DNA of 64,000 bases from Clavaria fumosa (Eukaryota > Basidiomycota > Agaricomycetes > Agaricales > Clavariaceae). Positions 3,900 to 30,135 of this stretch are shown in pieces (position 1 is the first letter of the stretch; every line of letters begins with the position of its first letter). The stretch is taken from contig OX637796.1 of assembly GCA_951802425.1 (NCBI GenBank), positions 1,054,001-1,118,000 of the forward strand. Reading direction: 5' to 3'. A model generated the notes under the pieces. It was not told the origin of the DNA. It made no database searches and was given only the letters and a program-made list of their open reading frames with translations. The translations under genes were made by a program, and so were the position numbers.

Positions 3900-6800
3900 T
3901 CACTGGATGAGGCACAGTCTGGATAAGTTGCCCAGACTTCTGTGACATGAACTATCAGCTCTTTTGCTTTTTTTTCTTTCATTGTGCTTCCCCTGATTTG
4001 AATATGTGGATGCCAAATTGCCAATGCTTGTCAGAGTGTCTGGATGTTCTGGGCCAAGCACTCTCTTCCTGGCTTTCATGACATGAACCTTCAGTTCCTC
4101 TGCTTCATTGTGCTTCCCCTGAGCTGAATATGTGGATGCCAAATTGCCAATGCTTGTCAGAGTGGATGGATGTTCTGGGCCAAGCACTCTCTTGATGGCT
4201 TCCATGACATGAACCTTCAGTTCCTCTGCTTCATTGTGCTTCCCCTGAGCTGAATATGTGGATGCCAAATTGCTAATGCTCATCAGAGTGTCTGGATGTT
4301 CTGGGCCAAGCACTCTCTTGCTGGCTTCCATGACATGAACCTTCAGTTCCTCTGCTTCATTGTGCTTCCCCTGAGCTGAATATGTGGATGCCAAATTGCC
4401 AATGCTTGTCAGAGTGGATGGATGTTCTGGGCCAAGCACTCTCTTGATGGCTTCCATGACATGAACCTTTAGTTCCTCTGCTTCATTGTGCTTCCCCTGA
4501 GCTGAATATGTGGATGCCAAATTGCTAATGCTTGTCAGAGTTGATGGATGTTCTGGGCCAAGCACTCTCTTGCTGGCTTCCATGACATGAACCTCCAGTT
4601 CCTCTGCTTCATTGTGCTTTCCCTGGTCTGAATATACGGATGCCAAATTGCCAATGCTTGTCAGAGTGTCTGGATGTTCTGGGCCAAGCACTCTCTTCCT
4701 GGCTTTCATGACATGAATATTCAATTTCTTTGCTTCATTGTGCTTCCACTGATTTGAATATGTGCATGCCAAATCACTAATGCTTGCCAGAGTGTCTGGG
4801 TGTTCTGGGCCAAGCACTCTCTTGCTGGCTTCTATGACATGAACCTTCAGCTCCTCTGCTTCATTGTGCTTCCCCTGAGCTGAATATGTGGATGCTAAAT
4901 TGTTAATGCTTGTCAGAGTGGATGGATGTTCTGGGCCAAGCACTCTCTTGCTGGCTTCCATGACATGAACCTTCAGTTCCTCTGCTTCATTGTGCTTCCC
5001 CTGAGCTGAATATGTGGATGCCAAATTGCCAATGCTTGTCAGAGTGTCTGGATGTTCTGGGCCAAGCACTCTCTTCCTGGCTTTCATGACATGAATATTC
5101 AATTTCTTTGCTTCATTGTGCTTCCACTGATTTGAATATGTGCATGCCAAATCACTAATGCTTGCCAGAGTGTCTGGGTGTTCTGGGCCAAGCACTCTCT
5201 TCCTGGCTTCTATGACATGAACCTTCAGCTCCTCTGCTTCATTGTGCTTCCCCTGAGCTGAATATGTGGATGCTAAATTGTTAATGCTTGTCAGAGTGGA
5301 TGGATGTTCTGGGCCAAGCACTCTCTTGCTGGCTTCCATGACATGAACTCTCAGCTCCTCTGCTTCATTATGCTTCCCCTGAGCTGAATATGTGCATGCC
5401 AAATTGTTAATGCTTGCCAGAGTGTCTGGATGTTCTGCACCAAGCACTCTCTTCCTGGCTTCCATGACATGAATATTCAGTTCCTCTGCTTCATTGTGCT
5501 TCCCCTGGTCTGAATATGTGGATGCCAAATTGCTAATGCTTGTCAGAGTGGATGGATGTTCTGGGCCAAGCACTCTCTTCCTGGCTTCTGTGACATGAAC
5601 TCTCAGCTCCTCTGCTTCATTGTGCTTCCCCTGGTCTGAATATGTGGATGCCAAATTGCTAATGCTTGTCAGAGTAGATGGATGTTCTGGGCCAAGCACT
5701 CTCTTCCTGGCTTCTGTGACATGAACTCTCAGCTCCTCTGCTTCATTATGCTTCCCCTGAGCTGAATATGTGGATGCCAAATTGCTAATGCTTGTCAGAG
5801 TGGATGGATGTTCTGGGCCAAGCACTCTCTTCCTGGCTTCTGTGACATGAACTCTCAGCTCCTCTGCTTCATTATGCTTCCCCTGAGCTGAATATGTGGA
5901 TGCCAAATTGTTAATGCTTGTCAGAGTGTCTGGATGTTCTGCACCAAGCACTCTCTTCCTGGCTTCCATGACATGAATATTCAGTTCCTCTGCTTCATTG
6001 TGCTTCCCCTGGTCTGAATATGTGGATGCCAAATTGTTAATGCTTGTCAGAGTGGATGGATGTTCTGGGCCAAGCACTCTCTTGCTGGCTTCCATGACAT
6101 GAACCTTCAGTTCCTCTGCTTCATTGTGCTTCCCCTGGTCTGAATATGTGGATGCCAAATTGTTAATGCTTGCCAGAGTGTCTGGATGTTCTGCACCAAG
6201 CACTCTCTTCCTGGCTTCCATGACATGAACCTTCAGTTCCTCTGCTTCATTGTGCTTCCCCTGGTCTGAATATGTGGATGCCAAATTGCTAATGCTTGTC
6301 AGAGTGGATGGATGTTCTGGGTCAATCACTCTCTTCCTGGCTTCTGTGACATGAACTCTCAGCTCCTCTGCTTCATTATGCTTCCCCTGAGCTGAATATG
6401 TGGATGCCAAATTGCTAATGCTTGTCAGAGTGTCTGGATGTTCTGCACCAAGCACTCTCTTCCTGGCTTCCATGACATGAATATTCAATTTCTTTGCTTC
6501 ATTGTGCTTCCACTGATTTGAATATGTGCATGCCAAATTGCTAATGCTTGCCAGAGTGTCTGGGTGTTCTGGGCCAAGCACTCTCTTGCTGGTTTCTATG
6601 ACATGAACCTTCAGCTCCTCTGCTTCATTGTGCTTCCCCTGAGCTGAATATGTGGATGCCAAATTGCTAATGCTTGTCAGAGTGGATGGATGTTCTGGGC
6701 CAAGCACTCTCTTCTTGGCTTCCATGACATGAACATCCAGTTCCTCTGCTTCATTGTGCTTCCCCTGAGCTGAATATGTGGATGCCAAATTGCTAATGCT

Positions 6801-8705
6801 TGCCAGAGTGGATGGATGTTCTGGGCCAAGCTCCCTCCTTTGGCTTTCCATTGCACACAGAGAAACTTCCTCTGCATCCTCAAACAATCTATTTTCATAG
6901 TAAATCAATCCCAGTTTCTTCCATCTTTCAGCATCCTCAATTGCATATTCTCTTTGTAAATGTAGATTGATGTTTTTTATGTGTAGCAGTAGTGATTGAC
7001 GAAAGGCATAATCAGAGCTATCATTCCCATATGTGATTGAGTGGCACACCAAAGTGTCAACAGCAACATATTTTGACTGTTTCTCCTCTTCAGAACACCT
7101 GTCTTGGCACCACAGATGTACCAGTGGATGTATGGAGTACAGTCTTCTAGAGCTGCTGCATTTGCATTTCACAAGTGAAAATGATCTCAACATCTCAACA
7201 CCTTCCCTAAAAATGAAATTGTCCCAGTTCCCTGCATTGTCAACATGCAATATGCTGGACCAATCTACTGAATCCCCGAGTAACTGCCCCCAGCTCCTCC
7301 TTGCATTGTTTTTGTGTGACGCACCCAAAGCTATCTCTTTGGCAGCACTTCTGAACATCATTTCTGGAATGTTTTCATGGTGGAGGCAGGCAAATATCTG
7401 TAGCAGGAGAAGTGCACTTGAAGCTGCCTGGGCTTCCCCTCTTTTGCTCCTGACATGTGCCCTGGCTTCTATCTCTGCAACTGACAGTTCCCATGTCCCA
7501 TAAACTGCTTTTCCATAGTTGGATGCCCCCATGAATTTAGGATTATCCAACAATTTTTGATGGTGTTTCTCATACTGTTCAAGGTAATCCTCAAGATCAC
7601 ATAGGCCACTTGCAATAGATGCACCAGCTTGGTCAACAGCTAGAGGCAAGTAGCATAAGGTGGCCACAATAGAGCATGCTATCTGCCTCCATTCACCAGT
7701 TGCATCATTGCAATGGCTCGCTCTCAGAAGGAGAGTGATTGCTTCCTCCTTCCCCATCTGGTCAACTTCGGTTGAGTCCCGAGAATGTACCAGTCCAGGC
7801 ATGACTGGATTCCGGCTGGTGATGAGTATATTGCCTCGGTTGTTTGCAGGTATATAATTCTTCACAGTACCAGAATCACTTGCATTATCATAAACAAGCA
7901 ACCACTCCTGTCCCATCCAGGATATCCATGAGAGAACCGAGTGCACAGAGCTCTCAACTCCAGATGCTTGGGCAGCATGATCATGAGCCATATCTTTGAT
8001 AGACTGCTCAATGGTCTCAGGGCTGGTCGCATCAATCCAGAAGACTCGCCAGAACCTGTTCAGAATGGTAAGTGATCAAGCAGTGTAGTACGATGCCGGT
8101 CAACGCACAACTTTGGATTTTCCTCAATGAATTTCAGACAAATCTGAGTCTTGCCAATGCCTCCCATTCCATAGAGGAGAAAGAGCCGTCTAGGGAGAAA
8201 TTGTCCCTCACGCAGGCCAAAATGATGTTTGAGTTTCTCGAGATATGATCTCTGCCCTGTGAAAATTGGGCTCGGGGAGGGCATCCCTTTGAATATGACT
8301 TGGGACTGGAACTGTGCAGAAGAGGGAGGATCAAACAGGGCTACATTGGCAAGTCAGGCCAGTTAGGTCGAGAGCACAAAGCTTCATTCATTAAAGCTTA
8401 CTTGGGTGGATGTGGAGTGAACCGATGGTGAGGTTATGAGACCCAATATCTCTGGCATCTACAACAGTTTGTTGGAATTTGGGAAGAGGGGTAAGCTTCT
8501 TACATAGACTCACGTATAGTTGAGTGATCATAAGCCTGTTGCACAACCAAGGACACCGGTGGCATGCCAGTCACCCTCTCAATGTCTGCAAGAGATCAGG
8601 TTGCAAGTAAGATCAAAGAGCCCTGAACTTTGCAAACAACTCACTAGCTGTAGTATGATCTTCATTTAGTGAGGGTAAATCCTCACCAGTGATACCCTGT
8701 GCCAT
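3900..8705 (-). CDS. NLR-type receptor: NB-ARC NTPase with a long TPR (kinesin-light-chain type) repeat domain
   Basis: Likely an intracellular sensor of the fungal NOD-like receptor class, where the NTP switch controls oligomerisation and the repeats bind ligand. My model has five exons: 8705-8645, 8585-8514, 8458-8402, 8340-8109 and 8055-3900. The four introns (59, 55, 61, 53 nt) are GT-AG and all phases agree, giving 1525 aa. The ATG at 8705 opens the first exon. Residues 1-110 show no domain I recognise. Walker A GMGGIGKT is at about 121-128, followed by FWIDAT, the Walker-B-like WLLVYDN at about 192-198, ILITSR, and YLPLAVDQAG. From about residue 547 come 23 copies of a 42-aa unit beginning G(P/A)EHP.TL. 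The last unit is broken by a probable frameshift at an A-run (see findings). The family is known; the role here is inferred. Confidence 0.88.
3975..6840 (-). repeat. 126-bp tandem coding repeat (about 23 TPR units)
   Basis: Each unit encodes 42 residues of the pattern GPEHP-S/D-TL-T/A-SI-x-NLA, then TYS.QGKHNEAEEL.VHV.EA.KRVL. Variation is confined to a few positions: S/D after EHP, S/N/G before NL, D/A/N before Q, and EEL versus KKL with RVHV/KVHV/NIHV. Higher-order copying is visible. Units 13-14-15 are repeated almost unchanged as 16-17-18, and units 19-20 as 21-22. The near identity at DNA level points to recent unequal exchange or gene conversion. Confidence 0.95.
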
Positions 8706-13290: not shown

Positions 13291-13573
13291 GACCACTCCA
13301 GTACTGCAATGCAAGGATTGGTTAACCGCGCCCCCAATGAAGGCCCGCGTTGGGGGTTCCCCTGCTGCGCTTTCCATTAGTTAGTCAGCCTGTCGAGGAA
13401 AGCAAAATAAAAAGCAAAAAAATTGACTTGGACAAAAAAAAGTCCAACTTTTTACCAAATAAGGGGGAACCCTTGCCCGAAAGAGGTGTGATGTCACGTG
13501 ACTCACCAGATCTGGCAAGGTGGCGAACTGATCGCCGCTGATCAACTTCAACGTCACGCACGCACAAGAGAAC
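13291..13573 (+). promoter_or_regulatory. Probable upstream region of the H3-mimic gene
   Basis: This interval lies between repeat B and the ATG at 13574. It contains a perfect CACGTG E-box-type palindrome at 13495-13500 and A-rich tracts at 13405-13445. No TATA box is convincing. Assignment as promoter is by position only. Confidence 0.3.
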
Positions 13574-15253
13574 ATGGCAAGAACTAAGCAGAATCCGAAG
13601 AAGACAACCGGCAGTCACTCGATCAGGGCGCGACTAAGGCTCCCAACCCGCAGTAAGCTCAGCCCCCAAATTTCAAGGGACAAACCCACGCCGGTAAGCC
13701 TAAGCCGTCGTGCACCTACGCCCAGCACTGATTATGCCAACAGAAGGTAGACACCGCCAGGAATGATAGGGTTTGTAAAGATTTTAAATTATTGCTTAAC
13801 AATTCATCCTGATCTTTGCTGTGATCCTACTACAGTGGTGTTCTGGCTGTGGTAATGGCGGCGATTCAATCGACTGCGATTTCTGCGAAAGAACGATCTG
13901 TAACGAATGCTTCCAGATTCCCCATGGGGAAGCTGCTATAGCAAGACAAGAAGTCAAGTTCAAATGTCCTGCCTGCCACATCTCATCTGAAAACCGCAAA
14001 AACCCCTACGAGGTAGAGCGCATCTTAGATTCCACCTACTCAGCCTTTTTTTACAACAACATTTTAAAGCCCCTCTATCTCCGGGGAAAGCCAATGAAGG
14101 ACTTGATTGGCTGGATCAAGGCCCCCACTCTTCGCGGCAACTATGCGTGCCAAAACACCAACTCCCTCGTGATGGTCAACATTCGCCTTTCCAACATCCC
14201 TCGCAGGGGTGATCCGTTCTATTCTGTTGCCAACAACGTCGGGGGTTGGTTCACCGACACCTCCAACGGACAAGAACTCCTCGAATGCGACATAACACTT
14301 GATGTCAATCCCGAGGATGGCAAATCGCTTGAAATGCACCAAGGAATCCTACGGGGCTTCGTAGGAAAACTTCGAGGGTAACTTTTTACATTATTGCACA
14401 TACATAATACTAACAGCCTTTGCAGTTTGGGTGTGCAACGCCTAATCGTCTTTTTATACACCCATTCAAATCCCGATAACGGAGATTTGCACTGTGCTCC
14501 TGGCGTCGGATTGGAGATTGGTCAGGTACAGCCTTAGTTGGATTTTATGGCTTTTTTATCTGATGGCTCTTAGTTCTTGGAAGAAATTATCGGTGCAGAT
14601 GTAAAATTGTTTGCAAAGGAATCGCACTCAACCCTGGTTATGCTGGTCTGTGGCCAAGTCTGGGAGATTCCTGAGGCAACTCAGGCAATCAAAACATATG
14701 CCAAAAGGTGAGTCCGCTGCCATATACTCAGACATTCAATTAAAAAAAACACAGTGAATCCTTCAACTGGATCGTTGGCTTTGGCCAACCGAATTTCTAC
14801 CCGCACCTGGCCGCGCCGTTTCTGATGAAGCTCATGGTCAAAACTTACATCGAATGTTTCTCAATCAGCAGGATCGTCCCCGATTTACTCAAGGAGGAAG
14901 AAGGCCTTGGGGCGCACACCTCACTTATAACTCTCAGCCCCAGCTTTGGGCTCGAATTCTTCTGGTGCCACAAGACCCTCCACCCTCTCGGCGAGCTCAT
15001 TCCGCTTCAGTGCCCGAAATGCGCTGTCCTTCGCTCAATGACGTTCACTACGGTTGGCCAGAGGGCAGGCATGTACAAGGCTTTCTGCCCTTGTGGATTT
15101 ACTGTTGAGAAGGATACGAAGATTGCCAATGCTACGCTGCCCCAGGCAGCTGATGGAAGTGTTATTGGCTGGGGTTCGCGCCTTTGGTTTGGCAGCCCTG
15201 CAGCTGCAAGCAAGGCTTGGAATGCTCCCCGCAACGCATACAACGTCTCGTAA
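13574..15253 (+). CDS. Histone H3-tail-mimic protein with ADD/PHD-like zinc finger and putative caspase/CHAT-like region
   Basis: Six exons in my model: 13574-13693, 13751-13774, 13836-14377, 14426-14525, 14574-14707 and 14755-15253. All introns (57, 61, 48, 48, 47 nt) are GT-AG with matching phase, giving 472 aa and no internal stop. The 24-nt second exon is the least certain; skipping it also keeps frame. Residues 1-13 read MARTKQNPKKTTG, close to the start of histone H3 (MARTKQTARKSTG). Residues 49-96 form a cysteine finger, C50-x2-C53, C62-x2-C65, C70-x2-C73, C92-x2-C95, with the WC..C..GG...C pattern of ADD-type PHD fingers. Strand LIVFLYT-H242 and strand LVMLV-C288 resemble the His/Cys dyad layout of caspase/CHAT proteases. 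A CxxC...CxC ribbon lies at 393-420. The family looks like one I recall from agaricomycetes, unnamed. Function unknown. Confidence 0.85.
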
Positions 15254-15609
15254 TATTTCGCGTGTTTGTCACCGTCGTCTGTCAGGCCAAACGTTGATTT
15301 GTTTGCAATGCCAATTTTGATCGTCTCGTTTGCAATGCCGTTTTTTTTAAATATGCCAAGCAACTAGAGGATGAGCTGCTGTTTTGCTGATTAAAATGGC
15401 CCTGGGGAAAAGCGCTACAGTCTGCTGGCATCACTTTGCACACCGTTTGTTGTTTCTTCATGCTGTACTGGAAATAGCACTGAAATCTTTAATTTAGAGC
15501 TTACAGAAACATTCTAGAATATGTAGGGATACCAAAGAGCATTTTTCTGTAATTTTAGGATGCTCACAGACAAGTGTAGCAATAAATTGAGAATTGGAGC
15601 CACAGAGGA
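15254..15609. other. Downstream region of the H3-mimic gene; no gene
   Basis: AT-rich 3' flank between the TAA at 15253 and the transposase relic on the other strand. I see no ORF or repeat of note. Confidence 0.5.
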
Positions 15610-16790
15610 CTACGCCATACAAACGGTCACTCTGCACAGCCGCGGGAGCGTTTGCTCGTCATCATCTGAGCTCGCAACCTCTTCATCCTCATGCTCTCCA
15701 ACAGCGTCTGGGTGCAACATTGAATCTTCTAACACTAGTTTTGGCTTCAGTGGGCGCTTGGGTCGAGGCGGTAAGTCTTTTGCACGGACTTTTGCGACCC
15801 GCAATCTCTCACACTCCACCATCCATGCCTCGATATCCTGGTTGTACAGGGCCATCATTGCCTTCCACTCAAGCTCGACCACTTGCTTTGCAGCTTTTTT
15901 ACTCTTTCGCCCTGCGGCTCGCCTTGCCTTTGCAGCAGCTTCGTCCTCTTTCTTCTGGTTGTGTGCTCTTAGTTGTTTGCCAAACTCGGGGTCTGTTACA
16001 TGTCTTCCAAGGCCTCCGGGAAAGAGTGTAGCTCAGTCAGTCTTGGGTTTGTTCTCTTTATGCTGCGTTTTCATGCCTCGTCCACCCACTACCATGATAC
16101 TCCCTGGTCTGAAGGGGGGTATCCACTCTCGTCCATTCCATACAAATCTTCAGGTCTGATTTCTGTTCACAACAAACTTCTCCACCAGCTCCAACCAACA
16201 TTTCTTGGTTTCAGGATTCAGGGCTCGTGCGCGTTGTGTGTCAAGCAGCTTGCTCCAGTGGGTTTGGAGCATGTCCCAACGTCGATCCAAGAACCGCCCT
16301 GCCCAGCTCCCTCCCATTTGTTCAGATCTAGTCCCAAGGCGGTTATTTCGGACCAGGTTTGCGTGTTGTTCAATGTTGTTCAGGGTCATTGGGAAGCTTC
16401 AATCTGCTGATTCCTTGATGCAGCTTACAATAACAGCTTCGCTTCTTCAGCAGGTGTGAGCTTCTGCTGCTCTTCATGTGCCTCTCGGATGCTCCTTCCC
16501 CCGTTACACCTGTTAATTATTGTTCTCCACTGAGACTCTATCCATATTCCTTCGCTTTTTGCCACACACTCCTGCGCATGTGGGACTCCTTTGTCTGCTC
16601 ATGATGGTAGGCATCAACTGCGTCCTGCAGCTTTGTATCCTTGGCATGGCTCTTAATTTGAGCTTTGACACGTTCTGACAGCACTCGGTAGGGAATAGGA
16701 AGGCGAGTTCAGGCCGGAGGGTTCCGATGGAACGGGTTGACATGTGAAGAAGCATGCGTTTGATGCGCGCCGTCACGTTAAACGTTGATC
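15610..16790 (-). pseudogene. DDE-superfamily transposase relic with CENP-B-like N-terminus, core deleted
   Basis: Minus-strand pieces follow the order of agaricomycete DDE_1/pogo-like transposases. First is an N-terminal segment with REAHEEQQKLTPAEEAKLL (about 16455-16400), the CENP-B-type helix-turn-helix region. HWSKLLDTQRAR and EKFVVN follow (about 16265-16160), then the first catalytic aspartate region YGMDESGYPPSDQG (about 16130-16090) and GGRGMKTQHK. The sequence then jumps to the C-terminal tail (RHVTDPEFGKQLRAH and a charged end finishing at 15610), so the rest of the DDE core, including the second and third acidic residues, is missing. Several frameshifts and at least one TGA where an arginine is plausible confirm decay. 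No terminal inverted repeats were found by eye. Confidence 0.75.
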
Positions 16791-17121
16791 CTGCTTTAGG
16801 ACTCTCATTTTGCTTGGATTGCTTCCAGATGAGGGATGAGTTTATACAGGAATAAGTTCTATTTTGACTCAATCCAATCTTGAAGCCATAAAATGTGATG
16901 AAGTGGCAAAAATCTTGAAACAAAAGCGACCCAACTGGCTAATACGCATGTCACTTCTCATTGATTCATTCAATCCAGCTGAATTTGGCAAGAAGGTAGA
17001 TATAATAGGTTGCAATCTCTAAAAAAAAATCACAAGGGATCTGGGCAAAAATAGGCGATCTTTGCTATTGGTGTGTAAAGTGGTGGTGGTGTGCAAAGTG
17101 ATGCCGGTAGATTGTATTTGA

Positions 17122-18474
17122 CTATGTTTTTTGGCTATAAATGCCCTGCGTCATCCACCCAATGGCATCCTTTCCAAAATGTCTGAGAACTGCCTTCCTC
17201 ATAAACATGGCGTAACATATGCGATCCCCTTCTCCCCAGCTGTCAACTTCATGTGTGAGCAAGTTGGCACAAAATGCCACAACTGTGCCACTTGGATAAT
17301 GAAGGTCTAGCCCAAGCTCCTTTAAATGCAGTGTGGTGTTTGAATAGCTGCTGACGGTGGTAAGCACATCATACCAAGCATGGCTTCCGTTTCTGTCAAT
17401 GTGAGGCTTTGTTAACCGATTTGCCATGACGGAAATTCCAGTAAAGACGGAGGACCAAAGGGACGCCTTGTGATTCGTGAGCTCATCTTCTCTGAGTCTT
17501 GCCAATATCTCCTTTCCAGCCTGGTAAAGTTCTGGATGGGTAAGCTCCAGGACATCATTCAAAATAGCCATAACTGCTTGAGAAGAGAGCAACCACAGCT
17601 CAGCTTCTTCGCTACTTAAGCTCACAGAGGGCTTCAGGGGCCATTTTTCTGTCTAAAGACCATGGGTTAATAATGAGGGCTAGGTGTAACAGTAAACCTG
17701 ACCCAAATACCATGGCCTTGAGCAAACCATCCAGCTGAATAGGTCTCGACACCTGTTGGAAAGCTTCTGCTCGGATGGGCTTCTGCAAAATTGTTGGGGT
17801 CTTTCCTCCAGGAGACCTTGTTGTCTGCATGTGACGCTTTTACTTGCAAAGACATCTTCTTGGCAATATGGTGTGTTGATCTGAAGAGCTCCGCCTTCAT
17901 GGATAAGGCTTTAGATATATCAGCCTTATAAAAGATTTAAAGATTTACCTGGCGATGAGGCAGCAGCAATCCTGGAAGATACCAGAGGATGATACGGCCT
18001 TTGCAGTCCACTACAGTGGCAGGCTGATCGGTGTGTCCCAACTTGGGGACTGGAAATTTCGATCTTGAGTCATTTGAGGCAGAAGCATACTCTTCAATAT
18101 CCCAGTCAAGGTAATCTATTCCTGGGCTCAGATGGGATAGGAGATGAATAAATGAGCTTACAGGCGTTGAGAAATGCAGATGCAATGACTTTCAGCAGCC
18201 TCCTTCGATCCTCTTGAGCTGGGGTACGATTTCGAGGACGTTTTTTTTCATTTTTGCTGGCCTTTTGGAAATGGCTGCTATCCCTGCTGACGTCGTCAGA
18301 TTTGAAAATGTAGAGAACAAGGATGTTATACTTGAATGGTGAAGGTAGGGCCTTGCTTGGGGACTGGTTTTGTAGCCTATACAAAAACTGCTCTTGAATG
18401 GAGAAAGCCTCCTCTGTTATTTTCATTCTTTTTTGGCGTCTAGGAAGATCCCCATCTGAACATATGTGATTCAT
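17122..18474 (-). CDS. TET/JBP-like 2-oxoglutarate-Fe(II) dioxygenase
   Basis: Predicted to oxidise methylated bases in DNA, in the class of fungal TET/JBP proteins described as lineage-expanded in mushrooms and often linked to KDZ transposons. Four exons (18474-18162, 18115-17949, 17894-17703, 17652-17122) join with matching phases (introns 46, 54, 50 nt) into 400 codons with no stop. A further in-frame 45- or 48-nt intron may lie in exon 1 near 18325-18280. The double-stranded beta-helix signature is complete: PHID gives H308 and D310, LLTH gives H358, and GDRICYA gives R368, the expected 2-oxoglutarate-binding arginine. The upstream segment has FPVPKL, KGRIILWYLPGLL and GWFAQGHGIW, which I recall from mushroom homologues. 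All catalytic residues are present, so it may be active. Substrate and cellular role are inferred. Confidence 0.7.
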
Positions 18475-19486
18475 TTTCTTTCAGGAGGAGGGGAGGGGCG
18501 GGAGAAATAGTGGCAGCAGAGATGGACCAGACAGGCTGTGACAAGCGCGGCATAAACCGTTTTGATCGTCGCACTCTTGCTTTTAGCCTTTTAGTCTTTA
18601 GTCTTTAAACAATTGCATCCCGTAAATGCGTCACGTGTCAAGTTGAATTGTTTATTTATGGATATTTGGATTTAGGCCCAGCGCCTAAATTCCCTTTTAA
18701 ATTTCGGGATTCTCCAGCAGAGTTCAGGTACAACAAATCCAAGAGCCTGCAGTGGCAACGCTGTCATGCTGAGCAGGGCCCCCCTTGCCCACTCCTTTGT
18801 GCTTTGAATCTTATCTTGTCTTGGTAGGGAGGCCTAATACTGAGTATCTACTGAGTTTGGTCTTCATCCTGTGCCAAGAGAGTGATTTGTCTACTAATAA
18901 TTCAACGACTACCCTCTCCCCCCCATTGAAAGGAAGGGCAGCTCATGCCTGCATAGGCCCTATGGTTCTGACAGTTTCTCAGATAGTGGAAAATATTCCA
19001 GTGCAGCAATCTATTATTAAGAGAGCTCTGGGACGTGTGAAGAAGCGCGGTGCATTTTAAGCTGGCATGTCGCAGCGCATTTAGCTGATGGCAGTGCGGC
19101 CTACTAACCACTCTCTGCCGCCTCTCGCCGGCTCAAATTTACTTATAATAAAGTGACACCAGGACTTTTCTGCACTTATGTCCTAAATCTAAAACTGGGA
19201 TGGCGAAATTTGCGCTCTGAAGCCCTGGAGCACAACGGAATGGCATAAAGTCTACGTCACAGTAAGGCAACAGGTGTTTCTGTGGGTCCGAGGGTCATTT
19301 GATGAAGAATAGGTGCCCACCGATGCACCAGCCATGCCCTGCAAGCCTAAGAGCGAGTAAGCAGGACGCGGCGACGCGATCGCGAGGTCATGCGTTGCGA
19401 TTTTCTTTTCCACACCTCTTTTTTTTGTGGAAAAAAGCCTGAGAGTCCAGATTGTCTGTGGAATTGGTGAGAATTTGTGGTCAGTT
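18475..19486. other. 1 kb intergenic stretch between two minus-strand oxygenase genes
   Basis: Contains the upstream region of the TET/JBP-like gene (18475 onward) and the 3' flank of the JmjC-like gene. Short open frames exist, but none resembles a protein family. A TTTAGTCTTTAGTCTTTA triplet repeat lies at about 18590-18610. Confidence 0.5.
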
Positions 19487-22400
19487 TTACTCCAAGAAAG
19501 ATTTCTCAGAAAATGACATGCCGTCATTTTGAGAGTGTGGCCTTTTAGGACGCAGGTCTGGCTCAGATTCGTCATCTCCCGCTCCACTGGCATCTTCGTC
19601 TTGCTCCTCTCCAGATGTCTGTGCATAGACTGGGTCGTTCAACAAATCTTGGAGCTCTGTCCAGACCTGAGACTCATCGCGGGGAAAGATATGGAACTTC
19701 GGGCCGTTCCAAATGAACCAGTGGCATTTGCTCGGATCGTCATTGAGAAGTTGCTCGAAGGAATGTAGAAGATCCTGCCATTCCTTGCGGATGTGGTCAA
19801 GAACAGCCGCGGTCACCTGTTTCGTCGTAATTGTAAGCAGCGCCTTCTCTTCCCATCTCTTCATGTAGAAACAGAGCGTGGCGCCGAATTGAATGAGCGA
19901 TCTGTTGAAGAGATAACAAGGGTTTACCCCTTGATCTCCAATCTCCAAGACATATCGGTGGTTAAACCAGCTTTGAAAAATATGGTATCGCCACATCGCA
20001 GCATTTCGTTCTTCAAGAACCTCTGGATGAGATTTCTTGCCAGAGTGTTTTAGACCGAGCGCCGTCGCAAACTCAAGCATATTTCCGACCATTATGACAT
20101 CCAAGAGACCCTCTTGAGTTGTGACGTCAGGAATGTGGGCAACTGTATCACTAAAGGCTAAAAACAATCTCAGATGGAATACTTTGCAATACAACAGGAA
20201 ATACCATATTTTGATGCGCCACCAACGTAGTGCTCAACCCAGATGGCCATCATCCTACTCAGGTATGTGCCTGTTGACTTGAGGTCCTGATTTGTGATGA
20301 CCGGGTTAAGCACAAATGTGTGCAGGGTTGAAGTGCAGGTCAGAGCCATAGTCGATGCGGAGTAGAAATGCCGGCCGTAGACTATCGTTGGCTCTGGACC
20401 AAGTACAAAGTGAAGTGTTCCAGGTTGCATGAAGCTGTTGGATTCTCAGTAAATGAAGCATGTGGGAATTGCTGTGACTTACAAAACATCCCCTGTCTTC
20501 AAATGGATTGCCTCCGCCTGCAGAAACCCTTTCCCTGTGCTACAGGCACCCCAGCTGAGAGGGAAGGCATGCGTCGAAAAGATGTCACCACGGTGATCTT
20601 CCTTCTCTACATTTTCATGGCGACGTATCACCGCCCACCATTTCGAGCCTGACATGATAGTCGAAACGACTGCAAGACCAGAATCGTCAATGTGTGGCAT
20701 GCTCATGGTACCACCAGTTGAAGCAAGTCCCCAAATCAGGTCCTCCTTGTCAGCTTGATTGCTGATGAAGCCATCCACTTTGCGAGTTTGATGATGAGCC
20801 CACTCGTGGGTTGCAAGAGCGCTGATTTGAGTGTATATCAGTCAAAATGTCATGTCGATGCAGGGGTGGACATGCCTGAAGCGAGGTGGTGGGGGGAGAC
20901 TGAGGTGGCCCATCGGGAAATCCAGGCCGTTTAAAATGCGACGTTTTCCCTCATCCTGCGTTGACTCCAGAAGGTCAGCGAGAGTACCAGTACGGAGGAG
21001 GTTTACGTCTGGGTCCTTGCGCATCTCTGCAACTGCAGAAGATGAATTAGAAGGATCACCTGAAGTACTATGCGTGACTCACCTTGGAAGACGCATTTCT
21101 GGTGTAATGGGCCCAAAGTCGACAACCCCTCCTCATCAAAGTTCAAAGGTGTCATGGGTGTGTTTGTGACCAGGATGTGACGGTGGCGGAAGATCTGTTG
21201 GACCTCTGTACTTGCCATCTTCATGAAATCTGCCCAGGATGTGACGTATATGGCTGACCCCTTGGGGTCAAATATGGGGGACCTAGCGGCAGGAAAATGA
21301 TGCTTGGGGACTCTGTTGACATAACCTTCTTCCACCATTTCGATGATGTCACTCAACACAGGATACTCTTGGAATCCCTGCTCCATTTTGAGAGAGATCT
21401 TTGAAGAACAATATGTTTCAAACTCACTGAATCCTCTGTAGCAAAATGTTCATATAATGTTGGTTCATTATTGGGATTGGCATCAAACATCTTGACCTTA
21501 ATCGCACGGTTCATCATCTTTATTGACATGTGAGATTAAAATGTTGGATGGTAGTCAAGACTTCACTCACCTTCGGGGGAGGTAGAGAATGTAGCTCCTC
21601 AGTCTTCTCACTGTCCTGAATGAAATATAAGATGAAATGATGCAAGGATGATCATATTAGACATACCACTGTGAGATCAATAATAATTCGAACTGGCTTC
21701 ACAGCCGACTTCTTCCCTGGAAACTTTCCCCAGCTCCTACTATTATCCTGTGGGGTCATTCCTTTCTCCTTTCTTGCTGCGGGCTCCTCGTCTGACATCA
21801 ACTCATCGTCATCTTCCTTGTCTGAGGCTTGAAGTCGCAGTCTCTTCACCGCCTTTCGTACTGGATGACCAGATCGACTTTCTTCTTGGGGTTGTGGGGG
21901 CTTTTCCAAGACCTCCTCCTCTTCATTTGACTTGAATGCCAGTTCCTGTTCTGGCTCTTTCACTCCCTCACTTCCCTCAGCTGAAGCGACCCAACCCTTA
22001 TCCCCATAATCTAGCATGGGAAAGATTGGCGCTTGCTCCATGGGACCAGGGTCAGGAGCAGTAATTGCGATTATGACTTTCCCTTGATCTCACATTCAGC
22101 TTTCTTCAGAGACCAAGAAAACAAAATTGCTTACGGGACTGGGAATACCAATCAATCTCAATTTCTAGACCTTGAAACTTTGTGTGTAGCTCTTGGAACT
22201 CAGCGATGAAGGTACTCAAAGCTGCTGAAGTGTCACCGGTAATGCTTGCCTGCATGAGAGCCTTCCAGAGTGCTTTCTCCGTCAGACCCAAAAATGGTGG
22301 CTTTTCATTGCCAAGAGAAATTGCAGTCTGCGTTTCCAGCTCTGTGAACACTGTTTGATTTAGAACTGAAATGTGCTTACTGAAACTAAGTAACTGCGTC

Positions 22401-23401
22401 GGACTTGGGACCGTTCAAACCCTCTTGCAGACAGAGCAAAAAGAGGGGAGATGGCGACACAGTAATGGAAAAGCCCGCGCACATGCTCAAAGAGCATGGG
22501 ACCCAGATTCTGATCTGTGAGCCTTGAGATAAGGCTTGTGGACATTGTAAGACCCTCCCCCTCCAATTGTCTATGTGGAATGAGTTAATCGTGTAATGAG
22601 ACAAGTACAACTCTGTTCTTACTCATTCAATATATTGACCCAGTCTTGGGTAGATTCAGCAAAATCGGTGGCACCATTCTGAAACATTGTTAGTAGTAGT
22701 TGTGGTAGTTCACTCATTACTAACCAATCCAAACCAGGTGATGGCAAAGGCCATCATCTCAAAGTTGAGCAGGAGGGTTTTGACTTTGATGTCTCACATT
22801 CGCTCGAGCCCGCTGCCAAGGAACTTCACCATCTTGATGAGGCGCTGCTGGTCTGTGGTTGGGTTGGCTGGAAGCACACTAAAGTATGTGGCTGGATTTT
22901 GAAGAGGATCCATGCTTTGAAAACCATGAGATCCCTGGGCCTTCTGAATCGGCTTGACCCAATCTTTTATCATCGCAATAAACTAAAAGATATAAGATAC
23001 TTGGACAAGGGCAGGGAATTTGACACACCTCTCGAACCCTCTTTGGGACTTGTGGAAACTCAGAGCGAGGGCTCAACTGAACAGGACAAACTTCATTTCC
23101 TAAGGCAAACACCAAACAGTCCAATAGCGAATGGCGAAAAATGAAATGGGCAGCACCCATCAGAGCGGACGTGTCATGCTTGCCCCATTTGCCTTCACTC
23201 ATTATGTCAGCAAAAGGGGCGCAAAAGTACTCATTGACCGCCTTCTCCTTCTTGATTGCAGTGCGTCCTGGATGCATGCCAAAATTATCTAAAGATTGGG
23301 CAATTAACTGTCAATAAACTTTGATCAGAACATGAGCCCAAGTTTATATATATGTATTCAACCTTGCAAAGTGAAACTTGTTCTTCTCCAATGTTTGGAT
23401 G
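19487..23401 (-). pseudogene. JmjC-like oxygenase gene, main part; 5' exon split by a retrotransposon and one nonsense codon
   Basis: Thirteen exon segments join with consistent phases: 23401-23363 (rest of the split exon), 23307-23029, 22982-22725, 22678-22623, 22570-22381, 22327-22135, 22088-21667, 21615-21571, 21517-21428, 21377-21083, 21026-20876, 20821-20483, 20434-20205 and 20157-19487. With the detached 5' part (28959-29099) the frame covers 1133 codons including the stop. Codon 216 is TGA (22796-22794), in a context that suggests a former CGA. The cupin/JmjC-type metal site is MPHID (H763, D765) and, after VLxxxGDV, MQPGTLHFV (H841), followed by YGRHFYS. A charged linker with IIIDLTV precedes it and an acidic tail ends it. 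The intron at 20875-20822 appears to be GC-AG. From the internal ATG at 22041 a 731-aa intact product could still be made. Confidence 0.72.
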
Positions 23402-23406
23402 GTTTC

Positions 23407-23697
23407 TGTTAGGATCGCTTATGTAAGCCATCCCAAAGTGCAGTTGTGGAGAAACTGGGGAGGGTTGTTGGAAGGTCACATGACCTGTGGCTGGGTCGGA
23501 TTATGTAATCATGTAAGATCACATGACCTGGGGCCTGGGCGCATCACGTGATCCGAGGGTCCGAGCGTGGGAACGCCGGCAAGTGCCGAAGCGTTCGCTA
23601 TAAGTACTTTCGCTTTTCCTTTTTTGTACTCTTTTCCCCTTATCTTAGTATTGTCGTCATGACCTTACGCTTAAGTTGTGTGAGACCCAGTCTGATA
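23407..23697 (+). repeat. Chromovirus copy 1, 5' LTR
   Basis: 291 bp. Carries a TATAAG box at 23599-23604, a palindromic atcacgtgat at about 23545-23554 and several acatgac/catgtg motifs, all consistent with a promoter in the U3 part. The internal part of the element starts at 23698; I see no standard TGG-type primer binding site directly there. Confidence 0.93.
23599..23604 (+). promoter_or_regulatory. Candidate TATA box of the chromovirus LTR
   Basis: TATAAG, 193 bp into the LTR, after the E-box-like palindrome and before a pyrimidine-rich tract (ttcgcttttcctttttt) typical of fungal transcription starts. The same box is in the 3' LTR at 28860-28865, from where it could drive transcription into flanking DNA. 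Confidence 0.45.
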
Positions 23698-24390
23698 TAA
23701 TACTAAGATCCGCCTGTCCGCCCTAGCCCCGTGTCCTAACCCGGCTAGCCTGGACCCTTAATTTCAAACTGTGACACGTTGTCACAGCTCAGCCCCTATC
23801 ATCCTCTTCTCCTTTACCCTGCCCGCGGTGTGTAACAGAACCGCGCGAAATTTTTACTGTGTGTAGATACACGTGACCAGACCAGGAGGAAGTCAACTGT
23901 GACCCTCCCCAAGTGATACCGAGTGCCCAAGGCCCGGAACTTTGTTTTACAGCTACGTACCAGTGAATCGTGTAGTGTACAGGGCAAGGAAAGGCCCCTA
24001 CATAGTCTTTCTGTAGTTTCCTGGTCCAGTGGACAGGGCCCTTGCTCTGTGACCATTGTCAGAAGGGCGCACGGGCAACTCATTAGGAGTTGTGGAGTGA
24101 CCACCTGGGACACCATTTGGGCCCCACGTTAACAAAAGTTTCATAGAATAAGAGTTCTATAGGTACATAAGTACACAGAAGAGCAGCCTAAGAGGACAGG
24201 ACTGTTAAGAGATCGAAGAAATCCTGAGTGCCCAAGGCCTGGAACTTTATTTACAGCATCCAGGGCCTGTGATGGCAGACCATGTCGCCCCGCCTGTAGC
24301 CCAACCTATGAGGCTTGACCTATCTGTTGCCCCTTTGATGGGCAGAAAAGGAACTTCCGTACATTCCTCCGATCCCTTCGCCTCCTGTTT

Positions 24391-25191
24391 ATGGCGAACC
24401 TGACTGTCTATGCTGTGGACCTGGTGAAGGTCCTTTTTGCTCTGAGCAAAATTACTGGAGAAGGATTCGCTGCAGAGTGGGCAAATATGAAGGCGGAAGA
24501 GATCCTGGGTAGTGGCGAGGCCGGAACCTGGGCAGAGTTTGTGGAGGAGATGAAGCGCGCATTCGATGACCCAAATGACTGTGCGACTGCCCTTGCCGAT
24601 ATTGCAGGGCTGAAACAGGGTGCCATGACAGCACCAGAGTTCTTCGCGAAATTCGAGACGCTGTCCCGATGGGCGAAGTTGAGTGCAGAGAAGGACTCAG
24701 GAATCCTAGTCCATTGGCTGGAGTTGAACCTGAGTAGGAGGTTGGTGGAGAGAATCTATGGTGTCTCCCCGATGCCAGAGACATATGGAGAATGGAAGGT
24801 GCTGGCTGAGAGGCTTGATGCCCAGCAAAGGCGATTGGATGGGATACTCACGGAACGGACACCGCGACCCACTGTGACCCCCATGCTGTGTACTCCAGAT
24901 GTGGCCATGGCCCGAGGATGGGCCCCTGCTGATGAGAGATGTTGTTTCCGATGCCACCAGACTGGCCATGCTGTCCGTTTCTGCCCCCTGCCTGATACGC
25001 GTCTGCAGGTCCCAAGGGCCCAAACCCGGGCAGCACCATGTGCCCCCCAAATGGCGGAGGGATATGAGAAAGAGATTGCATGGCTCCGAGCCTGCATAGA
25101 GCTGTGTGAGAGAGAGAGGAGGACTCCCATTGGGGAGAAGAAGTGTGCCAGCCCCCTTTCCGTCCCTGTGCCTGCTGCAAGTATACCCTGA
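24391..25191 (+). CDS. Chromovirus copy 1 gag (capsid/nucleocapsid), N-terminus uncertain
   Basis: 266-codon frame with the retrotransposon gag fold segment (FAAEWANMKAEEIL, WAEFVEEMKRAFDD) and one zinc knuckle CFRCHQTGHAVRFC (C-x2-C-x4-H-x4-C) near 24950-24990. The ATG at 24391 is internal by homology. QKRNFRTFLRSLRLLF is encoded just upstream in the same frame, and a likely true ATG at 24272 is in another frame, so an indel probably lies near 24320-24340. The stop at 25189-25191 appears because this copy has five C at about 25151 where chromovirus copy 2 has four. With four, gag would instead run into the pol region. Confidence 0.8.
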   Translation: MANLTVYAVDLVKVLFALSKITGEGFAAEWANMKAEEILGSGEAGTWAEFVEEMKRAFDDPNDCATALADIAGLKQGAMTAPEFFAKFETLSRWAKLSAEKDSGILVHWLELNLSRRLVERIYGVSPMPETYGEWKVLAERLDAQQRRLDGILTERTPRPTVTPMLCTPDVAMARGWAPADERCCFRCHQTGHAVRFCPLPDTRLQVPRAQTRAAPCAPQMAEGYEKEIAWLRACIELCERERRTPIGEKKCASPLSVPVPAASIP

Positions 25192-28100
25192 TATACTATC
25201 TTGCAGCGGAGACATACCCGAATTGGGGCTGAGGTGAAGGAGGAAGTGAGACTGGCAGAGCACCTAACCAGAGTGCGGCCAGAAGTGCGGAAACATGTGC
25301 CACGAGAGCTAGCCATCCAGGTGCACTTGGAGGCTTTCAGCACTGGCAAAGGGACCACAATGAAGGCCCTTGTCGACTCAGGGTGCACCAACTGCTTCAT
25401 GGATTTGGAGTGGGCAAAAGGAGTGGGACTGGAGCCATCTCTCCTGCTGAACCCAATCACCATGTATAATGTGGATGGGACACAGAACAGGGATGGAAAG
25501 GTCCGATATGGGATAGAAGTGCTGGTGAGAGTTGGTGACCACCAGGAGCGGATCCACTTTCTGCTGGGAAAGACCCAGTCCCACAAGGTCATCCTTGGGC
25601 ATGACTGGCTCAAGCGGCATAACCCGGATATTGACTGGCAGAAGGCAGAGCTGAGCCTTACCCGCTGCCCCCCACAGTGTTCCCCATCCCCTCGAGCCCC
25701 TGCACCCCTGAAAACAAGTACCCTCGCATCCACGAGTATTCTGGACACCCGTTTTCCCAACTCTGGCCCTACCCCCGATTGGCCCAGCCGCTACCCTTTG
25801 GTGTTTAGTGAAGCAAAGTGGGATGAACTTCCCCGCTCCCGACCAGACTTCGATATTAAGATCGAGTTCAAAAAGGACCCTGAGCACCTCTCCTCCAAGC
25901 TGTATTCTTTGACACGGCAGGAGATGGTGGAGATGAACCGTTGGGTGGATGAGCAGCTTGCTTCTGGACGAATCCGGCCCTCGAAATCCCCGTATGCCAG
26001 CCCCTTCTTCTTCAAACATGAGAAGGACAAACTGCGGCCAATCATCGACTACTCAAGGCTGAATGCACACCTGATCAAGGACAAGTACCCCCTCCCCCAC
26101 ATCCGAGACACAGTGGATGTGCTTAAAGGAGCGTCGATCTACTCTAAGATTGATGCAAAGGGAGGTTTCCCATCTATGCAGGTCTGGCCCGAGCACCAGC
26201 ACTGCTGCGCCTTCCTGACACCCCGTGGACTCTTCGAACCAGCTGTCATGTGGTTTGGACTGCAGAATGCCCCTGCCACCTTCCAACGCTTCATGAATCA
26301 TGTGTTGAGGGAGGAGATTGCAGGAGGACATGTGAGGGCCTATGTGGATGATGTCATTGTGTTTGCAGAGGACTTGGCTACACACCAGTACTGGATGGAT
26401 CGGGTCTTGAGGAAGTTTGGAGAGAATGGGTTGTGTCTCAAACTCAGTAAATGCAAGTTTGAGAAGAGTGAGATCATCTTCCTGGGGATGAAGATCTCCC
26501 ACAACAGACTAGAGCATGATCCGGCCAAGGGTGCGGCAGTCCGAGATTGGCCACATCCTAAGAATGTGAAGGATGTCCAGAGGTTCAATGGGATGCTGAA
26601 CTACCTCCGCCGGCACATCCCGAATCTTTCTGCCTGGGCAAAGCCACTCTTCTGGCTGACTGGGAATGTTCCGTGGAAATGGGAGGAGGAGGAGGAAGCG
26701 GCCTTCCAAGATCTCCGCCAGGCACTTGTATCAGCCCCGGTCCTGGCTCTGCCTCAGGACAAAGGGAGATGGAAGGTAGAGACAGATGCAAGCAACCTGG
26801 CAACTGGTGGAGTGCTCTCGCAGCAGCAGACGGATGGAACCTGGAGAGTTGTTGACTATATCTCCAAGGCCCTCACTGCAGCTGAGAAGAACTACGATGT
26901 GTATGACAAGGAGTTCTTGGCTGTGATTCGGGCACTTCGCGAGTGGCGAGCATACCTCATTGGAGCAGAGGAGACGATTGAGATCTGGACAGACCATGCA
27001 AACCTCCAGTACTTCTGGAAGCCCCAGAAGTTGAAGCCAAGGCAGGTTCGTTGGGTTGGAGAGCTCCAGTGCTTTGACTTTGAGATAAAGTATCGCACTG
27101 GCAAGTCGAACACAAAGGCAGATGCACTCTCCCGGAGACCGGACTATGGAGAGATGGTGGAGGAGGATGCACCAGTGCAGGTTTTCCCGGAAACGGAAGT
27201 CCGTGTGTCATTCACATCGGAAATGGAGACGCTACTCCAGAAAAATAGCGCGGTACACATACAGAAGCCGGAGGAGCTTGATGACGAGTGGACATGAGAT
27301 TGTGCTGGACTCTGGCGAAAGGGGATAGTCACCTGGGTCCCCCTAGGAGCTCGTGAGGCCGTTCTCGAGTTTGAGCATGACCTCCCCGCTGCTGGACACC
27401 CTGGGCCCCGGAAGTTGAGAGCAGCACTAGTGAAGGGTTATTGGTGGCCGGACATGGTAAAAGATGCGGATCGGTATGCCGAGGGGTGTGAGACATGCCA
27501 GCGGACGAAGCCTGACCGTACCAAGCGTGCTGCCCCACTGCACCCCCATCTGGTGCCCGATGGTCCCTGGTCGGTGATCTCATGGGACATAGTCGGTCCC
27601 CTCCCCCTCTCCCGTGGACATAATGCCATCCTTGTTATTGTTGACAAATTCACAAAACGGACACTGCTCGAAGCGATCGGGCTCGACCTCACAGGACTTG
27701 GAGTGGCGCGTCTCCTCCGGGATCGAGTGTTTCGTGACCATGGAGTCCCTCACAAGGTTGTGAGTGACCGGGGGTCCCAGTTCGTGTCCCGCTTCATGAA
27801 GGAGTTCTACTCCATGATCCAGGTAAAGGCAAATCCAAGTACTGCCTTTCATCCGCAGACTGATGGACAGACGGAACGGGCGAACCAGGAGATGGAGATC
27901 TATCTCCGGGCTTACGTGGACCATCTCCAGGATGACTGGGCTGAATGGTTGTCCACTGCGGAGTTTGCTCTTAATAATTGTGAGCACTCAGCAACAGGAC
28001 AGACACCTTTCTTCCTCGATTATGGACGACACCCATGGAATGGGGGGCTCCGGCCACCTTCTGAGGTGAACCTGGCAGCGGACGAGTGGATGGCTAAGCT

Positions 28101-28656
28101 CACGGAGTCCCGAAGAGCAGCCAAGGAGGCAATGGAGAAAGCAGTGGCAGCGATGAAGAAGAGCTACGATAAGGGGAAACGCCCAAGTCGGGAGTACTCT
28201 GAGGGAGATCTGGTCTGGCTGGATACTAGAAACTTGAAGATGGACCGGCCCTGTAAAAAGCTTGACAACAAGAGAGCAGGCCCCTTTGCAGTTGAGGAGA
28301 AGGTGGGACCTGCTGGGTATCGCCTCAAGCTCCCTCGGGCCTGGCGCATCCATCGGGTCTTCAATGAGTTGCTGTTGACACCATACCACCCCCCTTCCTT
28401 CCCTTCCCAGAACCTGCCTCCCCCTCCGCCCCCTACGATTGATGATGACCACCTGGAGTATGATGTGGAGGCGATCCTTGATGTTAAGAAGGTGGGGCAT
28501 GGAGTGAGATACCTGGTGAAGTGGTTGGGATACTCTGTAGAGGAGAACACTTGGGAGCCACGACGGAACCTCACCAATGTGGCACTGCTTCTCCGGGACT
28601 TCTTCCTTGCTCACCCTGACAAGGCCAAGCTAGCTGGTCGGGACGCCCAGCCTTAA
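25192..28656 (+). pseudogene. Chromovirus copy 1 pol: protease, reverse transcriptase, RNase H, integrase, chromodomain
   Basis: One frame (with a stop) covers the whole pol region. In order it holds an aspartic protease with ALVDSGCTNCF (about 25370), RT with the catalytic YVDDVIVF (about 26341), and RNase H with VETDASNLATGG (about 26779) and WTDHANLQY (about 26988). Integrase follows with CETCQRTK zinc residues (about 27490), the DDE positions SWDIVGP, VSDRGSQF and TDGQTERANQE (27580-27880), and a chromodomain ending VKWLGYSVEENTWEPRRNL (28515-28575). The frame is interrupted by TGA at 27295-27297. Chromovirus copy 2 has CGA (Arg) there, so this is a nonsense change, not recoding. The first ATG-independent start at 25201 is not a real start; pol is probably made by readthrough or frameshift from gag. 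Confidence 0.93.
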
Positions 28657-28667
28657 GAGGGGGGTGA

Positions 28668-28958
28668 TGTTAGGATCGCTTATGTAAGCCATCCCAAAGT
28701 GCAGTTGTGGAGAAACTGGGGAGGGTTGTTGGAAGGTCACATGACCTGTGGCTGGGTCGGATTATGTAATCATGTAAGATCACATGACCTGGGGCCTGGG
28801 CGCATCACGTGATCCGAGGGTCCGAGCGTGGGAATGCCGGCAAGTGCCGAAGCGTTCGCTATAAGTACTTTCGCTTTTCCTTTTTTGTACTCTTTTCCCC
28901 TTATCTTAGTATTGTCGTCATGACCTTACGCTTAAGTTGTGTGAGACCCAGTCTGATA
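28668..28958 (+). repeat. Chromovirus copy 1, 3' LTR
   Basis: 291 bp, matching the 5' LTR base for base apart from one C-to-T difference. It begins directly after the polypurine run that follows the integrase-chromodomain stop and ends at the GTTTC target duplication. Confidence 0.93.
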
Positions 28959-29099
28959 GTTTCCCAGCCAAGTCACAACGTTATCTTCAAGGGGTCCAGG
29001 TTGGGAGATGACATTGGTCATCCAGGGATACCTCTTGAAGACTGTGCTGGCACGGATGGTCTCTGGGTTGAAGATCGTAAGAGATTTTGAAGTGGACAT
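28959..29099 (-). pseudogene. Detached 5' coding part of the JmjC-like gene
   Basis: From an ATG at 29099-29097 the minus strand encodes 47 codons ending in TWLGN, where the last bases are the GTTTC target duplication. Beyond the retrotransposon the frame resumes at 23401 with HPNIGEEQVSLCK and then a normal splice donor. The two halves join seamlessly once the element and one copy of the duplication are removed, which fixes the insertion inside a coding exon. Whether further exons lie upstream of 29099 is not known. Confidence 0.7.
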
Positions 29100-30135
29100 G
29101 GTGTTGCGTAGTTGGGAGAGTTCAAGTAAAACGATAAACTTGATGGTGGTGGCAGTGCCTGGGATCCCAACTGTTACAGGTCACATCACATGTCACATTT
29201 GGGAATATGAACTTGTTGTCATCTCAGTGAGTGGACTTGCCAATTTTTACTTTGGTAGGTTTGACAAGGTCTTCATGTTACAAAGTATTAGTACTAGCAG
29301 TTAACCTGTGCTATGCCACAGTTGATGCACTTAAAGTTTACATAAGTTGTCACTCAATCATAACAGTAACGACGACAAAGCGCGTGCGACATCTACCCTG
29401 TGTAAAACTAAGATGTAGACCCACTCAGTGGTGGCTGTTCCTCCACCCTACTGGTCTTGAGACGCTTCAAATTCGATGAACCAGTCCGAGAAAAATTGAA
29501 TTTGAGTTTGCTGGGACTCATGTCAATGTAACCGAAGCATTCAAACTAATGTCTTCCGTCTCAAAGCCATAGATTCCGCAGTAGAGTCATGGTGTTCCCA
29601 CATCCAAGACCAGACTGAAATATGCAGTAGAGCAATAAAGCAAAGCAGAAGGAGTGGCACAAAAAGGAAAGCAGAAAAAGTTTGAGACAATGAAATGAGT
29701 GAGTAGAGGGCAAGCAAAGACCCCAAAAGGAAACAGAGGGATAAAGGAAAGGAAAGGCAGAACCAGACAGCTGAGTGAGTAGAGTATATGCATGTCGAGT
29801 GCGATGCCATCACGTGAATGCACCACGTGCTTTTGACATTTGACTTTGACGTTGGTCTCGCACGTGATACCAACCTTCCTTTGTAGTATAGATGTGCTTC
29901 TGCTCAGCATCATGCTGTGCATGTGCTCGGAGTGAGACATTAGTCATTGTCAACACCCATCCCCCAAATGTGGTGGGCTCATATTGGTTGTATCCCAAAA
30001 GGCATCAATATGGCAGGGAACCTGGTATGCAATGAATGCACATATTCTGTGCATAGACTTGTTTCCTAGTTCAATCCTACAAAGTATGGGAAAAACTTTG
30101 GGCCATTGAAAGCTTTGCTAACACCGTTGTCCTTG
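29100..30135. other. 1 kb stretch upstream of the JmjC-like gene; no gene recognised
   Basis: Should contain the original promoter of the split JmjC-like gene. Open frames on the minus strand (29541-29940) are short and of low-complexity hydrophobic composition. CACGTG-type sites occur near 29810-29870 (three acgtg cores). Confidence 0.45.

Follow-up and report, generated by a model that had tools for sequence, protein, structure and literature searches.

A histone H3-tail mimic joined to a putative H3-reading finger in a gene family carried by KDZ transposons of Clavaria fumosa

The gene and its surroundings

The window, which is the whole stretch of 64,000 nucleotides of Clavaria fumosa DNA that was analysed, contains a real gene at 13574..15253 of the forward strand. 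The reading frame is open from 13532 to 13750, and the earliest ATG in it, at 13574, opens MARTKQNPKKTTG. An earlier sequence-only reading had described a clean six-exon gene. The gene itself has held up, with an intact frame and GT-AG borders at every intron used; however, the six-exon splicing, which leads to a 473-aa product, has been replaced, because sister copies favour an additional 57-nt intron at 14013..14069. This segment is free of stops in the window copy; it bears stops in the sister copies L012, L013, L014 and L016 and is missing from subfamily B and subfamily D models, and hence it is probably an intron, with a predicted product that is likely to be 454 aa long and encoded by seven exons. 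All of them lie on the plus strand: exon 1 (13574..13693) encodes the H3-tail mimic (codons 1-21) and the start of a linker; exon 2 (13744..13770) continues the linker, measures 27 nt instead of the 24 nt previously stated, and has a counterpart of identical length in subfamily B models; exon 3 (13836..14012) encodes an eight-cysteine finger of PHD/ADD type with profile matches in the PDB; exon 4 (14070..14377) covers the middle region; exons 5 (14426..14525) and 6 (14574..14707) contain H224 and C270, respectively; and exon 7 (14755..15253) encodes the C-terminal part with a zinc ribbon and ends with the stop TAA.

The likely product begins with Met and H3-like positions 1-20, followed by a linker of 29 residues (37 if counted from G12), the finger from C51 to C96, H224, C270 and the ribbon (C375, C378, C400, C402). 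Both the finger and the C-terminal ribbon of the first reading are present, and so is its His242...Cys288 pair, renumbered as H224/C270 in the 454-aa product.

The gene lies in an A-type repeat copy at 13330..23406 (+), which matches a copy on contig C10 with 98.65% identity over 10,081 bp. The match resumes at 28955-30105, the limit of the comparison, after a nested LTR element at 23407..28958 (+) that is Gypsy-like by its frames and has identical 291-bp LTRs. On its 5' side the repeat copy is truncated: the likeness to other copies ends at 13330, and five of them share sequence further upstream. Convergent to the H3-mimic gene, an open frame (stop to stop) for a TET/JBP dioxygenase occupies 17122..17652 on the minus strand (Pfam Tet_JBP E=1e-20), and the two genes are separated by an insertion of 1.7 kb (15416..17116) whose inverted ends measure 29 nt; it is found at nine A-type places including the window (eight whole, one in two parts) and is missing from L014/L025. 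No KDZ transposase match lies within 88 kb of the window copy among the matches listed (150 of 185). Elsewhere in the window, the minus strand at 3900-8075 holds a 1391-aa frame of near-identical TPR repeats (TPR_10/TPR_12) whose start appears NB-ARC-like by eye, and a fragment of Copia-type reverse transcriptase lies at 641-1171 on the plus strand (RVT_2 E=2.7e-27).

A family carried by KDZ transposons

The window protein gives 137 matches in its own genome, which were grouped by hand into 68 places. As the sole query it missed subfamilies F, G and H, which were recovered by a codon pattern and an F-protein query and which bring the family to about 111 places (68 + 5 F + 20 G + 18 H, with subfamily names and place counts assigned by hand). 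When 150 of the 185 KDZ matches are used, a listed KDZ match is found within 5 kb of at least 27 of the 68 places versus 2.1 expected, whereas a Tet_JBP match is found within the same distance of 16 places versus 0.9 expected; at least 42 of the 68 have one or the other (2.6 expected), and 26, some of them fragments, have neither among the KDZ matches listed. Conversely, of the 64 Tet_JBP matches, 46 lie no further than 10 kb from a gene of the family, versus 2.8 expected, and 18 have no such neighbour. These expected counts assume uniform placement, and they are on the low side because transposons cluster.

Transposase, defined ends and target-site duplication are found together in the sister B element. 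Comparison of two B-type copies reveals sharp ends, running from CACATAGTTCAG to CTGAACTATGTG, within which the copies are alike and beyond which they differ; the ends form 60-bp inverted repeats with one mismatch, and the two sites show 7-bp target duplications, TCTGAAG and CGCGCCT. One of these copies, C4:4000408-4015915 (15.5 kb), contains an H3-mimic gene together with a CxC2-bearing KDZ transposase (CxC2 E=1.6e-23), the KDZ match (PF18758) being at C4:4011632 beside the H3-mimic gene. The gene thus belongs to a family that is carried by KDZ DNA transposons. Tandem arrays with units of 43 bp and 64 bp flank the genes within the complete B element (L057 9156-9901 and 1437-2465).

The idea that the gene encodes a host sensor of chromatin damage did not survive this result, as the family sits instead on KDZ transposons, beside transposase or TET/JBP genes. 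A domesticated chromatin sensor of the host would agree with the intact open frame in the window copy, yet it is scarcely credible for a copy that lies inside a repeat found elsewhere in near-identical form and that has dozens of sister copies.

In the family tree, subfamilies A-E of this genome group as a single clade (97/96); subfamily F groups weakly with relatives from Melanogaster and Fomitopsis (73/90). Five near-identical copies with truncated 5' ends (C1:91323, C5:39918, C12:42661, C4:4504226, C11:2704588) sit at distances of 40-200 kb to contig ends, a placement suggestive of subtelomeric duplications. A pair of paralogues may be present in several elements, for example at C1:933035-939400, C7:1272029-1278642 and C9:2155238-2160900: 13 of the 18 H-type places lie no more than 12 kb from a place of A-E type.

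The H3-like tail

Aligned in register with H3 1-20, the window tail is identical at 10 of 20 residues, a match with P of about 1e-7 (for a single sequence in a fixed register with background frequencies chosen by the authors), and the likeness rises to 15 of 20 in Coprinopsis. A1-R2-T3-K4 stands at the very N-terminus of the protein, with a small residue directly after Met, as expected of an H3-tail mimic. The start M[APV]R[TIM][KRTMH]Q occurs in 24 of the 28 modelled copies, and the remaining four (L018, L027, L049, L050) seemingly miss their 5' ends. The copy models were templated on the window protein; independently of them, the genome holds 67 matches to the codons of M[AP][RS]T[KRQ]Q versus 3 for the pattern read backwards. 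Of these 67, 46 adjoin family places, five lie in subfamily F, two lie in H3 genes, ten represent one recurring sequence and four are others, two of which are not family genes; another of these four has B-type bases and lies about 7 kb from a family place. The matches reading MPRTQQ (the same 18 bases at ten places) were discarded, since in L066, the one that was read, the motif is out of frame in an apparent Gypsy gene.

Imitation of the H3 N-terminus, as proposed from the first sequence, is backed by nine own subfamilies and by relatives from three other genera, Coprinopsis, Melanogaster and Fomitopsis, which are 22-26% identical across most of the protein. Foreign models with a tail include P0002, P0003, P0006 and P0008, and the foreign tails read MARTKATAKKAVG in Fomitopsis, MARTKQTAQKTTGGIAPRV in Melanogaster and MARTKQTARKSQGAFAPRVPL in Coprinopsis. 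Subfamily G starts with MARNKQTAQRSTGGRALR (one copy read). The conservation of the H3-like start is not complete: in the divergent subfamily H the likely ATG opens MASRS and the tail is seemingly missing (one copy read), and the degenerate foreign model P0009 starts MEQAKQ. Homologues without the H3-like N-terminus had been named in the first reading as counter-evidence, and subfamily H in part speaks against it on this point.

Residue counts were made over 13 chosen tails, a set that omits P0009, P0007 (the same tail within a longer model), subfamilies G and H, the models without a 5' end (P0001, P0004, P0005, P0010, P0011) and additional own copies of subfamilies already represented. R2 and G12 are present in all 13, T3, Q5 and R17 in 12, A1 in 11, K4 in 10 and K9 in 7, whereas lysine at H3 position 14 or 18 occurs in none of the 13, so that the tail resembles a fixed, unmodified H3 end. 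At position K4, some copies have R, T, M or H. Across six sequences of this genome, drawn from different subfamilies, pN/pS amounts to 0.08 over A1-Q5 (five codons), 0.23 over positions 1-12, 0.53 over positions 13-20, 0.77 in the linker and 0.40-0.46 elsewhere, and A1-Q5 is the most constrained stretch compared. Selection on the tail is thereby found across the relatives, with subfamily H and the degenerate P0009 as exceptions.

The likeness to H3 reaches R17 and L20, which makes common descent from H3 plausible, and the first exon could in principle be a relic, taken over from an H3 gene, whose likeness persists without a function. This is very improbable, however, given that A1-Q5 combines a pS of 0.92 (near the ceiling) with a pN of 0.08 between subfamilies while the neighbouring linker drifts, and that introns seemingly interrupt two of the own H3 genes behind STGG and a third one behind MARTK, where the mimic gene has none.

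PHD fingers usually contact only H3 residues of about 1-8, and the tail has retained those used by H3K4me0 fingers. G12 and R17 lie beyond the usual contacts and are about as constant as R2; consequently, another partner may shape the tail. The main rival to a self-binding switch is a bait that acts in trans, in which the tail would mainly engage a host enzyme that holds the H3 N-terminus, for instance an LSD1-type demethylase, or an ADD-bearing factor, the finger would anchor independently on chromatin, and self-binding would not be required. R2, Q5 and G12 remain steady while K4 varies, a pattern that the fold of H3 in the LSD1 pocket fits better than a pure PHD footprint does, and subfamily B starts with Pro-Arg, as do the SNAG domains that engage LSD1. 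Precedents are SNAIL1, an H3 mimic for LSD1-CoREST, and NS1, as given in the available part of PMC5663869. The genome of the fungus, in which DNA methylase matches are also present, has two matches to SWIRM, a domain that occurs in SWI3-type proteins as well and is thus not specific to LSD1. On the other hand, in every complete modelled copy the tail accompanies a finger of the H3-reader type through a linker that is unconstrained in sequence, an arrangement needless for a pure decoy, and the trans decoy is consequently possible but on the unlikely side.

The finger

The finger spans about 50 residues and has eight cysteines, C51, C54, C63, C66, C71, C74, C93 and C96, as zinc ligands in PHD spacing, together with profile similarity to readers of H3K4me0. 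Profile A1, built from own members and two foreign ones, matches CHD4 (3.8e-9), 3a1b (8.6e-7), ATRX (1.1e-6) and PHF21A (8.7e-6) in the PDB, and it also reaches about 1e-4 with histone H3 along positions 1-34. With the foreign members alone (profile A3), CHD4 reaches 5.7e-12, PHF21A 9.5e-7, AIRE 4.9e-6 and ATRX 2.4e-5, TRIM66, ZMYND8, NSD2 and KDM5A appear as additional matches, and 3a1b drops to 0.0095. CHD4, PHF21A, AIRE and ATRX are readers of unmethylated H3K4, and it is such readers that the profile of the finger fits best, making it a putative H3 reader. The earlier assignment to the ADD/PHD type consequently stands as regards spacing and the profiles of H3 readers, but not as an ADD proper: the absence of cysteines between residues 1 and 50 leaves no place for the GATA-like zinc finger of a full ADD, and the finger of the window family stays under the cut-off of Pfam PHD.

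The His/Cys domain

Each of the 17 rows selected for the core alignment has the His and the Cys of the H224/C270 pair, and the A1 members have the His in 8 of 8 and the Cys in 7 of 8. The conservation that was sought for H242/C288, as the pair was first numbered, is thus seen in most members but not in the stop-bearing copy L014, which has Phe in place of Cys, nor in the foreign models P0003 and P0007, which are without the Cys stretch, or P0009, which is without the His stretch. With hhalign, a 26-sequence CHAT profile places H224/C270 on the catalytic His and Cys with a score of 21.6 (E 0.015, probability 2.9%). None of 200 column shuffles reaches this score (mean 12.1, maximum 20.1), the same profile gives 8.8-11.9 with other parts of the protein, and a true pair, CHAT versus a metacaspase of the same genome, scores 20.5. 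Nevertheless, the His/Cys region scores only 13.8 against that metacaspase, masking H and C lowers the CHAT score to 16.5, a 6-sequence CHAT profile gives no match to the region, and Pfam CHAT and Peptidase_C14 have no match in the window-family protein. Sequence searches of the domain in Pfam, PADLOC and the PDB gave nothing useful, and IMG/VR scans for the gene family and for CHAT found no relatives.

The CHAT/caspase-like region of the original proposal therefore persists as a lead with weak support, namely one marginal profile-profile match in which His and Cys align with the catalytic pair, and it finds no family match. In a protease-centred alternative, a cysteine peptidase of the CHAT/caspase type (H224/C270) would be targeted or gated by the tail and the finger and might, for example, cut H3 tails or silencing factors. 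The conserved pair and a CHAT score above all shuffles speak for such an enzyme; the low hhalign probability, the missing matches and the members that lack one of the two residues or stretches speak against it, and it is judged improbable.

Proposed mechanism

It is tentatively proposed, with a confidence just short of the halfway mark, that the family encodes a self-reading histone mimic that aids the transposon in escaping from silencing, a mechanism that we infer from the anatomy and relatives of the protein. Removal of Met would leave a free Ala/Pro-Arg-Thr-Lys end, which would fill the finger of the same molecule (in cis) or of a neighbouring copy and yield a closed or self-assembled protein. 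Nucleosomal H3 tails without K4 methylation, the state found in silenced chromatin, would then compete for the finger, and the exposed mimic tail could occupy the H3K4me0 readers or erasers of the host. Together with the transposase and TET/JBP, this might help the element to locate silenced chromatin or to act against it. The His/Cys domain might act as a CHAT-like protease or as a scaffold, which is the least certain step. A bolder version, in which a KDZ-borne self-reading histone stays closed until silenced nucleosomes open it, lures or blocks the host factors of silencing and, next to a TET/JBP eraser, sets free an effector of CHAT-like type, is doubtful.

Autoinhibition in cis or trans is compatible with the anatomy of the protein, and a self-binding switch competed by H3K4me0 is favoured because of the pattern of tail and linker and because of two precedents. 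In the engineered CHARM, according to the accessible text of PMC11875203, 12 H3 residues suffice, activity was initially obtained only with a 40-aa linker, a free N-terminus is seemingly needed, and K4A abolished the effect. Similarly, the PHD finger of BAZ2B is inhibited by an internal H3-like linker, which is described as intramolecular mimicry in the available portion of PMC5663869. Since K4 varies among the copies and K4A abolishes the CHARM effect, K4 is kept less strictly here than a simple H3K4me0 mimic would suggest.

Comparison with known systems

KDZ transposons with TET/JBP genes have reportedly been described in fungi by Iyer et al. in 2014. The present family resembles such fungal KDZ (Kyakuja-Dileera-Zisupton) elements in its CxC2 transposase, the TET/JBP cargo of many copies, the 7-bp duplications and the CA..TG ends. 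As far as the available text of Kojima 2025 (PMC12730594) goes, two Kyakuja families of Laccaria have 7-bp duplications and CA..TG ends without inverted ends, in contrast to the 60-bp inverted ends of the B element; TET/JBP cargo is thought there to counter DNA methylation, and the same portion names no histone-like cargo of KDZ elements. A cassette of tail and reader, often accompanied by TET/JBP, would give the mobile DNA of mushrooms a two-layer answer to silencing, at the levels of DNA and chromatin.

Histone mimicry is known from viruses and chromatin proteins; we know of no earlier histone mimic from a transposon, and no report of a transposon-encoded one was found in the open-licence literature. 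If the proposal is true, a self-reading KDZ histone mimic would be, to our knowledge, the first from a transposon. Influenza NS1, G9a, SNAIL1 and the BAZ2B linker likewise place a short H3-like peptide on a non-histone protein, and the BAZ2B linker, which competes for its own PHD finger, parallels the self-reading proposed here. Unlike these, the mimic described here covers H3 1-20, begins at the actual N-terminus of its protein and is carried by a mobile element.

The putative finger shares cysteine spacing and profile matches with the ADD of ATRX/DNMT3 and the PHD fingers of CHD4, PHF21A and AIRE, whereas the GATA-like half of the ADD is missing from it and its similarity to PHD stays below the Pfam cut-off. 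With the CHAT/caspase-like peptidases (clan CD), the protein shares a His and a Cys that are 46 residues apart after hydrophobic stretches, as well as a weak profile match; it differs from them in having no family match, and the rest of the domain is unrecognisable. The closest designs are engineered: the profile-matched 3a1b is a crystallised H3(1-20)-DNMT3A ADD fusion, and both it and CHARM have an N-terminal H3 tail that is either tethered to an ADD finger (3a1b) or acts on one (CHARM). The family of C. fumosa is natural and transposon-borne, and its many evolved variants of tail, linker and finger offer a counterpart from nature to CHARM and other engineered fusions of the H3 tail.
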